IMG/VR virus record: IMGVR_UViG_3300021980_000099
Coordinates: 1-25,141 of that record
Strand: one strand, 5' to 3'
Origin: a virus
DNA: 25,141 nt
Shown: one piece after another, positions 1 through 8,732 of the stretch
Layout of the letters: the number at the start of each line of letters is the position of its first letter
Position numbering within the stretch: position 1 is the stretch's first letter
Program-made: the position numbers and the translations under genes
The notes under the pieces: generated by a model
The model's database searches: none
Told to the model about the DNA's origin: nothing
Seen by the model: the letters and a program-made list of their open reading frames with translations, nothing else

Positions 1-353
1 ATAACCCTTTTAGCGCCGGCATCCAGATGCTTTGCGGCCTTATCCCGGGACCTGAAAATTCCCGTGGATTCCACCACCACATCCGTTTCCAGCTTTCCCC
101 AGGGCAGGTTACTGGGGTCTCTTTCAGCGAACACCGGTATCTCTTTACCATCAACTATTATCGAGTTTTCAGTATGCTTGACCTCCCTGTCCCACACACC
201 GAAAGTGGAATCATACTTGAGGAGATGTGCCAGGGTTTTGGCATCAGTTATATCGTTCACGCCGACAAACTCCACATCGGGGTCGTTGAATCCGATTCTG
301 AACACGAGCCTGCCAATCCTTCCGAAACCGTTTATACCTATACGGACAGTCAT
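1..353 (-). CDS. gap: Glyceraldehyde-3-phosphate dehydrogenase, N-terminal part (cut by window edge)
   Basis: Read on the minus strand from ATG at 353-351, this encodes the first ~117 residues of type I GAPDH. The NAD-binding Rossmann motif INGFGRIGR lies at residues 6-14, followed by the family signatures VNDITDAKTLAHLLKYDS, VDGKEIPVFAERDPSNLPW and VVESTGIF. The enzyme converts glyceraldehyde-3-phosphate, NAD(P)+ and phosphate to 1,3-bisphosphoglycerate in cytosolic glycolysis/gluconeogenesis. The catalytic Cys lies beyond the left edge. A Shine-Dalgarno-like GGAAGG stands about 8 bases before the ATG. This stretch is more G+C-rich than the phage genes and reads away from them, so I take it as the chromosomal flank of an integrated phage. 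A phage-borne metabolic gene or a misassembly is less likely but not excluded. Confidence 0.95.
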   Translation of the reverse strand, partial: MTVRIGINGFGRIGRLVFRIGFNDPDVEFVGVNDITDAKTLAHLLKYDSTFGVWDREVKHTENSIIVDGKEIPVFAERDPSNLPWGKLETDVVVESTGIFRSRDKAAKHLDAGAKRV

Positions 354-4833: not shown

Positions 4834-6821
4834 ATGTAAGAGTATTCCTTGAAGGGAAGGAAATACCGGCCAAGTATATACAGGGTATTACTATCTCCCA
4901 AGCCACGAATACCCTCAACAGGGCAGTGGTAAATCTCTCTTTTTCGCCAACAAAACCACCGTTTGAGATAAGGAAGGATGGACCGATAGACATTCTAATA
5001 GTCGTAAATGGACAGATTTTGTTTCAGGGGGTAGTGTTAGCCCAAAGTCAAACGAAAACTTCTCAGGGGACACAAATATCCCTCTCAGCTATTAGTTCTT
5101 TCAGTTTACTCAATACATTGCGCATTGGACTGCTTAGTCCCACCTTCAATCCGGCTAATATACCGGCTATTTGGATTGCTCAAATGGGCGGGACCGTTTT
5201 CTTACCTAAATATCTCTCTCCCGAAGAGAAGGGGGCAGTAGCATACGATGTTACTTCTCTCATCTTCAATATTGTCAAGAAAATCAAAAAGCGGATAGAC
5301 AACAAAGATATACCCCTCAAAGCACAACATCCGATAAGGCAGTTTCTTGAGGAACTCCTCAAATTGGATGAAGATAAATGGAAAGCGGTAGCGATAGATT
5401 ATGGTCAAGCCTGTAAAAGTAAATCGGGAGCGTCTCCTACCAAAGTCGACCTGGAACTAGAGGGTAAAGAGTGGTGGAAAAAGGTACACAACAAATACAA
5501 GCTATCGGACCGAATTGTTGAGTATTCTCCCTTTACCGTAGCCTCTATTAGATTTTTCTTCCCACCTGGTAATCTAGCAGAAATCGTGCATGCCATTTTC
5601 CAAGGGGCAATGTTTTCAGGACAAACAGTTATGGCCTCATTGCAGGATATACTGTTCGCCTTTCTGAGTTATATGCTCTTGAACTTTATTGAGGTTTCCA
5701 CCGAAAAGGGTATAGCCCTTGTACCAAAACCTAGACTACTGTCAGCCCTACCACCAAAGAGCAACATCTTACCACCATATGCTGTTCAGGGTATTTCTCT
5801 TTCTATTGCCGACTCTCAAGTTCCTACCAGAACATTGGTAGTTCCGAACAATATGGCGATACCAAATGCCGACCCTACGGTGATTAGAATAGCCTCGTCG
5901 TCCTATATTGTTGCCTATCCCGAAGAGATAGAAAAGAAATCCTTATTGCTTGGGCTCAAAATAATGGAAAAAGCAGGTTTGGTGGAAAAGGCCGACCCAC
6001 ATAAACCTCTACCGGACTTAGCTCAGGAGTATTACACGGCAAAATGTTCAATGCCAAAGCCCGTGATGGCCGTTATTTCAGAAGAGGAAAAGAAGAGGGG
6101 AATAATACCCAACACCGTTCAGGTTCCTACCCAATTACAAGCGCTGGTAGACCAATTTCTAGGACAAACCTCTACCTTCAAAGCGTGGCTCACTCTCTAT
6201 GGCTGGGCGGCGTACAACCACTTAACACTTGAAGGTCAAGCTAAACGGGCACAAGTCCAATCAGCTTTCAATCCGTGGGCGCTGGTAGACCATACGGTGG
6301 TATTTTCGGATGGTAACCAAATATATATGGGACACGCTGAGGAAATTACCCATGTCATTACACCCACGGGGGCATATACAACATACCAACTATCCCACGT
6401 CAAGATAATTACCGAAGAATTTCTTGCCCACGTTATAGGAGGTAGTAAGAAGAAAGAGAAAGAAAAACCTCAAAAAGGGGAATTGGCAGAGTTTGATAAA
6501 GATGACAAGGAGTTTTTCGGGGAAGACTTTACCATCTTTGACTTGACCGCGAGTAAAGGGGTTGATGAATTGGAAACTCCGGATTACGAGGAACTCAAAA
6601 AATACCACAAAGAGGTGTTTGGTATCGAATACAAAGATGAATATGACGACAAGGCCATAGCTAACTACCTTTTGGATAGAAACAAACCAATTGACTTTGT
6701 CTATACCACCCTCTGGCCTCGTAAAATGGCGGAAGATATAAAAGGAGCTTTGAAGCAGATGGATAGAAATGAAGAACTGGTAAAGAAGATTTCCGACATT
6801 ATTGATACGCAATGGCTATAG
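4821..6821 (+). CDS. Baseplate / tail hub-like protein
   Basis: A 666-residue protein whose ends resemble the phage hub family (gp27/gpD 'late control' type). Residues ~1-100 form a beta domain (DVRVFLEGKEIPAKYIQGIT, then NRAVVNLSFSP, then DILIVVNGQILFQGVV). Residues ~476-525 carry the second barrel signature (FNPWALVDHTVVFSDGNQIY, MGHAEEITHVITPTGAYTTY). Between them are a Lys-rich helical insert (~150-190) and a hydrophobic stretch at ~243-293. The C-terminus is a Lys/Glu-rich linker plus a ~100-residue helical tail. An AAGGAGG at 4808-4814 sets the start. It overlaps the upstream gene by 13 bases and the sigma gene by 10. Such proteins form the central trimer at the tail tip. The family call is from recalled pattern only. 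Confidence 0.6.
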   Translation: MSAVDVRVFLEGKEIPAKYIQGITISQATNTLNRAVVNLSFSPTKPPFEIRKDGPIDILIVVNGQILFQGVVLAQSQTKTSQGTQISLSAISSFSLLNTLRIGLLSPTFNPANIPAIWIAQMGGTVFLPKYLSPEEKGAVAYDVTSLIFNIVKKIKKRIDNKDIPLKAQHPIRQFLEELLKLDEDKWKAVAIDYGQACKSKSGASPTKVDLELEGKEWWKKVHNKYKLSDRIVEYSPFTVASIRFFFPPGNLAEIVHAIFQGAMFSGQTVMASLQDILFAFLSYMLLNFIEVSTEKGIALVPKPRLLSALPPKSNILPPYAVQGISLSIADSQVPTRTLVVPNNMAIPNADPTVIRIASSSYIVAYPEEIEKKSLLLGLKIMEKAGLVEKADPHKPLPDLAQEYYTAKCSMPKPVMAVISEEEKKRGIIPNTVQVPTQLQALVDQFLGQTSTFKAWLTLYGWAAYNHLTLEGQAKRAQVQSAFNPWALVDHTVVFSDGNQIYMGHAEEITHVITPTGAYTTYQLSHVKIITEEFLAHVIGGSKKKEKEKPQKGELAEFDKDDKEFFGEDFTIFDLTASKGVDELETPDYEELKKYHKEVFGIEYKDEYDDKAIANYLLDRNKPIDFVYTTLWPRKMAEDIKGALKQMDRNEELVKKISDIIDTQWL

Positions 6822-7501
6822 AAAGCGTAGAAGAAGCTTATCAAAAGTGGAAACAAAACAGGGACCCTGAAGCTTTTCTCTTTATCTACAAACGCTATGA
6901 ACCTATGCTCATTTCAGTGGTAAATAAGTGGAATGCCAACTTGTCTCCCTCTTCTCTCAAAGCCCACGGTAAGGTCCAGTTACTGAAAGCCTTGGAAAGT
7001 TACGACCCTACCAAAGGAACTCAGTTACAGACCCACATCTACAACTATTTCCAAAAACTCAGCAGGGTAAGTATGACTTACGGCGAAACTGTCAGATTAC
7101 CTGAAAACCTTCGTCTCAAAGTGGGTAGTTATCTAGAGGCCGCAGAAAAGCTAAAAGAAAGACTCGGAAGGGAACCTACCCTGGATGAGTTAGCCGATGA
7201 GCTAAACTGGCCAAAGTCTGAAATAGAACGTATTCGTAAATATCTCTACCACGAGGGGGCTGAGTCCGCCGCGGAAGCACCTCATGCGTTTGACGAGTGG
7301 ACTGGAGATTCGGCTGTAATAGAGGCTGTCTACCGGTCTTTATCTCCAAAAGAACAGCTGGTATTTGAACATCTCACAGGCTACGGTGGAGCTTCCATAC
7401 TACAAGCGAAAGACATAGCTCGGAAATTAGGTATTTCCCCAGCTCAAGTAAGTCAAATCCGTAAGAAAATAACGAAGAAACTTCAGGAGGCATTACAATG
7501 A
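6812..7501 (+). CDS. Phage-encoded sigma-70 family RNA polymerase sigma factor
   Basis: A 229-residue protein with three sigma domains in order. Region 2 is at ~20-90 (AFLFIYKRYEPMLISVVNKW, and the 2.3/2.4-like KALESYDPTKGTQLQTHIYN). Region 3 is at ~94-148 (VRLPENLRLKVG, GREPTLDELADELNWPKSEI). Region 4 is at ~172-228 with the -35-reading helix-turn-helix (SLSPKEQLVFEHLTG, AKDIARKLGISPAQVSQIRK). Region 1.1 is absent, so it resembles alternative (FliA/phage-late type) sigmas. It would bind host core polymerase and redirect it, probably to phage late promoters. The start overlaps the end of the hub gene (ATGGCTATAG) without its own Shine-Dalgarno, so translation is coupled. Its stop overlaps the next ATG. 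Finding it inside the tail operon is unusual. Confidence 0.85.
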   Translation: MAIESVEEAYQKWKQNRDPEAFLFIYKRYEPMLISVVNKWNANLSPSSLKAHGKVQLLKALESYDPTKGTQLQTHIYNYFQKLSRVSMTYGETVRLPENLRLKVGSYLEAAEKLKERLGREPTLDELADELNWPKSEIERIRKYLYHEGAESAAEAPHAFDEWTGDSAVIEAVYRSLSPKEQLVFEHLTGYGGASILQAKDIARKLGISPAQVSQIRKKITKKLQEALQ

Positions 7502-7738: not shown

Positions 7739-7993
7739 ATGCTCTTTCTCGTTCTCCTGGTAGGTATTATTACCACTGTCTTTTGTGCTTGGGGCTGGGA
7801 GAAAAAAATAGAACTATTACCTCTGGAGTTTCTGGTATTACTTGTTGGCCTATGCTTCACCTTTTCTTACGGAGTAGCTTTCTGTGTTTTCGCTATAAAA
7901 GGACAACCTGAAGCAATCCATTATCTTTTCGCTTGGGTATATGAACTTACCCTTACTATTCTCGTTTACCGTTTTCTTTTCTTGAGCAAATAA
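7739..7993 (+). CDS. Small membrane protein, second of a pair
   Basis: An 84-residue protein with hydrophobic segments at about residues 1-18, 29-52 and 62-82 and a short polar C-terminus. It follows the previous membrane gene with one base between stop and start, and has GGGGAAG at 7728-7734 as ribosome site. Two adjacent three-helix proteins of nearly equal size suggest a holin/antiholin-like pair or a two-component membrane complex; neither can be shown from sequence. The last codons (AGC AAA TAA) form the left half of a hairpin with 8011-8019, so the operon may end in structured RNA. Confidence 0.7.
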   Translation: MLFLVLLVGIITTVFCAWGWEKKIELLPLEFLVLLVGLCFTFSYGVAFCVFAIKGQPEAIHYLFAWVYELTLTILVYRFLFLSK

Positions 7994-8019
7994 AATTGGA
8001 ATACAAAACCTTATTTGCT
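7985..8019. repeat. Left outer hairpin, member of a direct-repeat pair
   Basis: AGCAAATAA (7985-7993) pairs perfectly with TTATTTGCT (8011-8019). The left half includes the stop codon of the preceding membrane gene. The stretch GCAAATAAAATT...ATACAAAA (from 7986) recurs in direct orientation from 8434, beyond the other end of the palindrome. Confidence 0.7.
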
Positions 8020-8035
8020 TGACATAAAGAAAGCC

Positions 8036-8058
8036 AAAGCTTCATCTGATGAGGCTTT
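8036..8058. terminator. Hairpin AAAGC...GCTTT, left arm of the palindrome
   Basis: 8036-8046 pairs with 8048-8058 (one G-T pair; in practice an 8-9 bp stem, because the loop must open). The A-flank/T-flank arrangement looks like a weak bidirectional intrinsic terminator, but only three T follow the stem. It is 43 bases past the stop of the last membrane gene, so it could end the upstream operon. Confidence 0.4.
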
Positions 8059-8101
8059 CCTGACTCTAATCTTATTTTTATTGACAATAAAGTCGAATAA
8101 T

Positions 8102-8118
8102 TTGACAATCGTGTCCGA
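8102..8118 (+). repeat. 17-base element TTGACAATCGTGTCCGA, copy A
   Basis: Exact copy, forward orientation, outer left position. It is preceded 21 bases upstream by another TTGACAAT (8081-8088). It is mirrored by copy D around the dyad centre. The length suits a protein-binding site. TTGACA also equals a -35 consensus, but no good -10 follows at 16-18 bases. Confidence 0.85.
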
Positions 8119-8159
8119 AAGTCAAATCCGCTTGTCAGTAAGACGAGAATAACAATAAC

Positions 8160-8176
8160 TTGACAATCGTGTCCGA
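8160..8176 (+). repeat. 17-base element TTGACAATCGTGTCCGA, copy B
   Basis: Exact copy, forward orientation, inner left position, 58 bases after copy A. With flanking TAAC it forms a 21-base block perfectly mirrored at 8276-8296, the best-conserved inner block of the palindrome. Confidence 0.85.
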
Positions 8177-8275
8177 CTCTAATCTCAATTGCCCCCCAAT
8201 TTTCGAGGTACTAAACGTTTTTCGAAGTGAAAAACCCTATATATCTCGAAAAAGAGGGGGCAAGCAAAATTAGAT

Positions 8276-8292
8276 TCGGACACGATTGTCAA
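8276..8292 (-). repeat. 17-base element TTGACAATCGTGTCCGA, copy C (inverted)
   Basis: Exact copy in inverted orientation, inner right position. Start-to-start distance from copy B is 116 bases, exactly twice the 58-base A-B and C-D spacing, so the vacant middle slot falls on the dyad centre. Confidence 0.85.
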
Positions 8293-8333
8293 GTTATGAA
8301 CACTCTCAGCTTACTCTAATGGGCATTTGGCCT

Positions 8334-8350
8334 TCGGACACGATTGTCAA
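8334..8350 (-). repeat. 17-base element TTGACAATCGTGTCCGA, copy D (inverted)
   Basis: Exact copy in inverted orientation, outer right position, 58 bases after copy C. It is followed by a further inverted TTGACAAT at 8364-8371, mirroring the left arm. Confidence 0.85.
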
Positions 8351-8395
8351 GTTATTCGACTTTATTGTCAATGAAAATATCGTTAGAGTCAGCAA

Positions 8396-8414
8396 AGCCT
8401 CATCGGATGAGGCT
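8396..8414. terminator. Hairpin AGCCTCATC/GATGAGGCT, right arm
   Basis: A perfect 9-base inverted repeat around a single G (8405), so the physical stem is somewhat shorter. It is the mirror counterpart of the left-arm hairpin. No T-run follows on the plus strand; reading leftward it is followed by TTTGC. It may be part of the large structure rather than a working terminator. Confidence 0.35.
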
Positions 8415-8430
8415 CAGAAGTGTTTTATGT

Positions 8431-8466
8431 CAAGCAAATAAAATTTTGCATACAAAATGTTGCTTG
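8431..8466. repeat. Right outer hairpin, member of a direct-repeat pair
   Basis: CAAGCAA (8431-8437) pairs with TTGCTTG (8460-8466). The loop carries the second copy of GCAAATAAAATT...ATACAAAA. The hairpin abuts the promoter that drives the fibre operon. Confidence 0.65.
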
Positions 8467-8504: not shown

Positions 8505-8732
8505 ATGCCTAAGCAGATTTGGCACTCTCCTTGTTTTGTGGAGTTTGTAGAAGAACCTCAAGAGAAACGTCAGCGAATTTTACTGGAGTGGGCGGAGTAT
8601 TTACTGCATATGTTTGCAGCAATGGGGGACAAGAAAGCCAAGCAGTTGTTATCAGAATTACCAAAGTATGACCAACCTAATTACCCAACTTCAAGACAGG
8701 TTTCGGGGGGAAGTGGAGATAGTAACCCCTGA
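8505..8732 (+). CDS. Small acidic/helical protein, first gene of the fibre operon
   Basis: A 75-residue frame with a helical core (EKRQRILLEWAEYLLHMFAA, then KAKQLLSEL) and a low-complexity tail. The ATG sits about 8 bases after the -10 box and has no Shine-Dalgarno. It overlaps the next fibre-type gene by 65 bases in a different frame. The family is not recognised. It could be a leader that couples translation to the following gene, a small structural protein, or the 5' part of a product joined to the next frame by frameshifting. The helical pattern favours a real product. Confidence 0.5.
   Translation: MPKQIWHSPCFVEFVEEPQEKRQRILLEWAEYLLHMFAAMGDKKAKQLLSELPKYDQPNYPTSRQVSGGSGDSNP

Follow-up and report, generated by a model that had tools for sequence, protein, structure and literature searches.

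A mirror-symmetric stretch between two phage operons

Which function preserves a near-mirror-image palindrome of 461 bases between two operons of a tailed phage? The question is raised by positions 7996-8456 of a viral DNA fragment of 25,141 bases, the whole of which is called the window here; it carries capsid and sigma factor genes of a tailed phage. In bacteria long palindromes tend to be unstable. The retention of a 461-bp palindrome by a phage therefore implies a function, and the arms themselves must be asked what this function may be.

Repeat detection and direct counting define a left arm at 7996-8223 (plus strand) and a right arm at 8229-8456 (minus strand), separated by a loop of 5 nt (8224-8228). 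In an inverted-repeat search of the window the arms, 228 nt each, are 79% complementary with 0 gaps; direct counting gives 179 of 230 matches. The next-best centre of symmetry anywhere in the window reaches 39%, the mean over centres being 25.5%, and a gapped alignment of the arms introduces gaps solely at the loop and beyond their outer edge. These results bear out a preliminary description of the locus, which had placed an ungapped palindrome with about 80% pairing at approximately 7991-8461 and had asked for such a self-alignment. Its best blocks (21/21 and 18/18) come close to the four longest perfect runs found here, i.e., 22, 21, 18, and 18 nt. The matches are not spread evenly but form clumps (shuffling of match positions gives P about 0.006), and the innermost block, around the loop, matches in 24 of 35 positions. 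An amplification chimera was considered and rejected: it would yield identical arms, and those of the window are 21% diverged.

The palindrome occupies most of the 511-nt gap between the end of one open reading frame (ORF) at 7993 and the start of the next at 8505. A gene for an RNA polymerase sigma factor lies upstream (6812-7501, plus strand), followed by a small ORF (7739-7993, plus strand) whose stop is located 2 nt before the left arm. The first ORF after the palindrome (8505-8732, plus strand) is a mechanical call without a family match. DNA similar to the palindrome was absent from the phage and plasmid collections searched, Rfam and tRNA scans returned no match, and no site resembling an intrinsic terminator, with its G+C-rich stem and subsequent T run, was found within 7996-8456.

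The arms carry a mirrored array of sites

Where do the arms match best? All four longest perfect runs contain the hexamer TTGACA, and the remainder of the arm matches in 100 of 149 positions (67%). Within 415 bp of the palindrome TTGACA is present eight times, compared with seven times in the other 24.7 kb of the window. All eight sites face the centre, from which they are 66, 124, 145, and 207 nt away in either arm. That the symmetry looks maintained, as originally proposed, is supported.

Four of the eight sites are part of exact copies of a 17-mer, TTGACAATCGTGTCCGA, to which two of the four longest perfect runs belong. The window has four exact copies, two per arm and 58 nt apart, where 0.05 would be expected even with up to 3 mismatches. 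They are located at 8102-8118 and 8160-8176 on the plus strand and, as their mirror images, at 8334-8350 and 8276-8292 on the minus strand. The third TTGACA of the left arm resides in the 21/21 run ATTGACAATAAAGTCGAATAA (8080-8100, plus strand; mirror at 8352-8372, minus strand), the outermost one in the 18/18 run TTATTTGCTTGACATAAA (8011-8028, plus strand; mirror at 8424-8441, minus strand). Furthermore, each arm has a copy of a small dyad, AAGCYTCATCNGATGAGGCT, at 8035-8056 and 8393-8414, the left one without a T run after it. A 13-nt direct repeat, AGCAAATAAAATT, starts at 7985 and 8433 and lies partly within the arms. An exact scan for the 17-mer gave 11 GTDB genome stretches and three viral contigs, each with a single copy; such isolated matches elsewhere are mostly in coding-looking DNA.

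Elements of parallel design in distant relatives

No close relatives of the window phage were found in the collections searched with its capsid, its fibre and a 666-aa protein as queries. Distant relatives were reached via alignments of the capsid and sigma factor proteins. They include Salmonella phage Arash and Vibrio phage D69, and the major capsid proteins are about 33-35% identical to that of the window. A scan limited to the stretches beside their sigma or capsid genes found no palindromes of the kind sought. Scans of whole contigs did find long, ungapped inverted repeats, one to four per contig: four in G020, three each in G022, G024, and G026, two each in G003, G021, G023, and G028, one each in G005 and G001 (the latter the same element as in G003), and in G030 one plus a second at the contig end. 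The arms are about 50-240 nt long and 68-89% matched. They enclose spacers of about 90-410 nt with a TA-rich core (82-95% A+T in 60 bp), and the whole inverted repeat measures 0.3-0.65 kb. In contigs with at least three elements consecutive ones are 37-68 kb apart, a spacing more even than random (Fisher P 0.0006-0.008, according to the relative included in the count); the two found in G003 are separated by 92 kb.

The arms of the relatives, too, are built from short sites, nGACA/TGTC, the letters of which differ by phage group: TTGGACA in G003, CTGGACA in G020-G024, TAGACA in G026 and G028, and ATGACA in G005. Each element-bearing contig was scored with its own motif, four or more sites being taken as a cluster. 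The clusters coincide with the inverted repeats, extra ones being present only where G017 and G030 end; outside of clusters motif counts are close to those expected by chance in some contigs, and in others reach about 1.6-fold the chance level at most. Within a group the distances of the sites from the centre are nearly constant (in G022 and G024 121, 166, 186, 196, 252, 262, and 272). A second conserved motif, similar to CATAyACCyACyTTT, was observed in each arm of the elements of G020, G022, G030, and G005, at a position between the innermost site and the core; in the outward direction it looks like a ribosome-binding site plus ATG.

The genes on either side of the elements may run in tandem, converge or diverge. 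Genes within 3 kb point outward above chance, at 20 of 21 elements. Seven of 25 elements are overlapped by mechanically called ORFs of 100-175 aa, which are presumed to be spurious.

In the capsid tree one clade has an element in every scanned contig (G001, G003, G005, G020, G022, G023, G026, and G028; contigs of up to 185 kb). In an Arash-like clade (Arash, D69, G009, G012, and G014) no element was found, four members having been scanned essentially whole and D69 in part. No strong inverted repeat is seen in 760 kb of control loci. The capsid of the window groups with the element clade at 82/54 support and on a very long branch.

Several further repeats were inspected. At one end of G017 (L170) and at both ends of G030 (L253, L258) the contigs break inside or beside site-array elements; the repeats thus probably interrupt assembly, so that databases will lack some of the copies. 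One inverted repeat outside the main clade, weaker and with sites of the type GGGAACA/TGTTCCC (L268, G008 70890-71151), is possibly a further variant which, like the window element, has no TA-rich core. Excluded was an inverted repeat of G019 (L161 17167-17737, i.e., G019 75667-76237) since no site array was seen in its sequence; its arms of 121 nt are 93% identical, its spacer of 329 nt holds a 108-aa ORF, and it is possibly a mobile element. Likewise rejected were the L018 repeat, in which two terminator-like hairpins flank a stretch without a site array, and motif clusters of G014, which do not look like elements. A pair of genes for 666-aa and 228-aa proteins before the G005 element was considered as synteny with the window and discarded because there is no similarity.

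Base pairing or protein binding

Two properties could in principle keep arms in register, pairing of one arm with the other or protein sites in each of them. The preliminary description had named a large dsRNA-like hairpin transcript as a candidate and suggested looking for pair-preserving differences. A long hairpin RNA, be it a dsRNA-like transcript, a substrate of RNase III or an attenuator, would have its pairing selected, and indeed both strands of the palindrome fold at about -262 kcal/mol (z -28.8 and -24.6 against shuffles). However, such folding is a consequence of the palindrome itself. Among the 51 mismatches between the arms about half, i.e., 26, are transversions, and the transitions that would keep a G-U pair number nine on a plus-strand transcript and 16 on a minus-strand one, favouring neither. 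This pattern gives no sign of a protected RNA pairing. Moreover, the conserved blocks have the shape of sites, and the Rfam search was negative.

The relatives permit an independent comparison, for which seven contigs were used (G003, G020, G021, G022, G024, G026, and G028). On average an arm resembles its partner no more than arms from different elements resemble each other: the values within and between elements are 0.62 and 0.65 in G020, 0.62 and 0.64 in G021, 0.66 and 0.73 in G003, and 0.67 and 0.72 in G026. The opposite sign is seen in G022, G024, and G028, where arms are more alike within elements than between them. As arms are not specially matched within an element, protein sites rather than hairpin pairing explain the symmetry. 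The arms thus look like copies of one common functional pattern, and pairing between partner arms need not be the selected property. A hairpin RNA is improbable, and maintenance of the symmetry through base pairing is not supported. The palindrome of the window is probably a protein-binding DNA site of some kind.

Does the window element belong to the elements of the relatives?

Window and relatives have in common long, ungapped mirror arms, a non-coding position, and clusters of nGACA/TGTC sites which are confined to the element. They also differ. The arms of the window reach a 5-nt loop, and a TA-rich core is missing: the maximum is 67% A+T in 60 bp, compared with 82-95% in the relatives, and the centre of the palindrome has 62% A+T versus 58% for the whole window. 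Local alignments of the window element with those of the relatives score at shuffle level for nearly all that were tried; the elements of the relatives also differ strongly from each other. Because the core that is defining in the relatives is absent and the sequences do not align, the window element is not filed as a member; it is similar in design, its membership unproven. The 25-kb fragment is too short to show a second copy.

A broader reading is possible, if doubtful. The palindrome might belong, as a divergent member, to a class of phage elements not described before, in a clade of large phages that may replicate from several regularly spaced, mirror-symmetric origins. Initiator and sites might have changed together (GGACA, AGACA, and TGACA as variants of nGACA, and TTGACA in the window), and the window copy might have lost its A+T-rich core in a phage whose host is suggested to be warm.

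An origin of replication as the preferred explanation

Which protein might bind to such an array? Tentatively, we favour an initiator, the palindrome being a binding platform and most likely an origin of replication. A protein, presumably encoded by the phage, would recognize sites of the TTGACA/GTGTCC type in their mirror arrangement, so that two arrays of it would face each other across the centre. The arms would stay in register because selection would act on every site and on how far it lies from the centre, and pairing between arms would be dispensable. DNA replication would then initiate at the centre of the palindrome, probably one of several origins of a genome which exceeds the 25-kb fragment. 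The window element would presumably do the same job as those of the relatives.

Clustered symmetric sites, an A+T-rich core, several elements per genome and their occurrence with any gene direction fit origins best. Hence, of the candidates initially listed a replication origin remains the most likely function, on account of the site array and the design in the relatives; its support by GC skew did not materialize. At the elements of the relatives GC skew has no consistent origin signature, and a jump in purine skew is partly explained by gene orientation. Phages that replicate by recombination may lack a GC skew signature. It counts against an origin that no initiator gene was identified. The outward bias of nearby genes fits divergent transcription equally well.

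The main rival, which we consider rather unlikely, is two-sided control of transcription: a repressor, an activator or the phage sigma factor would bind the mirror sites and govern transcription that leaves the centre both ways, the fibre operon included. TTGACA is a -35 box, mirrored TTGACA-N17-GACAAT scores 10 out of 12 in both arms, a sigma factor gene is located upstream, and the genes of the relatives tend outward. Yet promoter-like matches number five where shuffles give 5.3, and the left-hand genes of the window run toward the palindrome. In the relatives the motif forms only one to four clusters per contig instead of preceding many operons, and convergent and tandem contexts are occupied as well. 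The varied contexts, together with the lack of a terminator-like site, also speak against the earlier notion of an insulator or switch tied to the junction of sigma and fibre operons. Sites for partition, segregation or genome organisation, comparable to a centromere, would account for regular spacing and clustered symmetric sites; they leave the TA-rich core of the relatives unexplained and have a low probability.

Long inverted termini with repeated sites and the 13-nt direct repeat are reminiscent of a miniature transposon, a fold-back element or two transposon ends joined together and bearing transposase sites, and GACAATAAAGTC may resemble sites of Tn7 ends. Against such an origin by transposition, for which the chances are small, the 17-mer matches in GTDB and viral contigs are always single exact copies, neither similar DNA in the phage and plasmid collections nor further copies at other sites were found, no transposase was recognised among the window proteins searched, and the 13-nt repeat is partly inside the arms. 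A hairpin telomere or concatemer-resolution site cut by a protelomerase, also raised at the outset, would be a large symmetric element with flanking inverted repeats, as is seen here. The imperfect symmetry of the centre makes it very unlikely; furthermore, the relatives have long spacers and carry several elements inside continuous contigs.

Known systems and significance

Herpes simplex oriL and oriS consist of inverted arrays of initiator sites that flank an A+T-rich centre, a layout which matches the elements of the relatives. oriL is a perfect palindrome of 144 bp with few sites; the arms described here are longer, imperfectly matched and rich in sites, and the window copy is without an A+T-rich centre. 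Baculovirus genomes contain several symmetrically placed palindromic elements, the hrs, which are bound by the viral protein IE-1 and serve as origins and enhancers (PMC6669502). As in the relatives, several symmetric elements are present in one large dsDNA virus genome, but hrs are composed of imperfect palindromes of about 30 bp, unlike one inverted repeat of 0.3-0.65 kb composed of short sites. The virus groups are unrelated and no homology is claimed.

SPP1 and lambda have iteron origins. The PLE ori is of the iteron type, with short repeats for protein binding grouped in non-coding DNA (PMC7145576). The origins of this kind in phages, satellites, and plasmids share with our elements short repeated sites clustered in non-coding DNA; they mostly have direct repeats and a single origin, whereas here the sites are mirrored and, in the relatives, recur within a genome. 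In the window the repeated sites are seen and the A+T-rich unwinding region is absent. The intergenic repeats of halovirus HF2 are reported to be 29 or 58 bp long, to have A+T-rich motifs and to carry promoters (PMC8707807). Like our elements they recur between the genes of a tailed virus and contain A+T-rich motifs; they differ in being short and promoter-bearing instead of large and inverted. By analogy, baculovirus hrs and herpesvirus oriL appear to be the nearest functional parallels. A phage element of such design was not found in the open-access literature searched, which is not proof of novelty.

If the proposal is correct, mirror-symmetric multi-origin elements would be the phage counterpart of baculovirus hrs. 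The parallel elements would predict the sites, several per genome, at which DNA replication begins in the large phages of an uncultured clade. Further, the letters of the sites vary between phages at a constant layout, which provides a natural data set for the coevolution of a protein and its sites.

The phage of the window and its host

A large protein of the window carries a DUF4815 domain and resembles tail proteins of SPO1-like phages. At the very left (1-352, minus strand) the window encodes the N-terminal 117 residues of a glyceraldehyde-3-phosphate dehydrogenase (GAPDH), running off the contig end; this is either a gene carried by the phage or a host or chimeric join. In the PDB its nearest entries, 1hdg among them, come from thermophiles. 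The IVYWREL fraction of the window proteins is 0.41, compared with 0.34-0.38 in the relatives. From these two observations the host of the window phage is possibly warm, and one may speculate that a warm host relaxes the need for an A+T-rich core.
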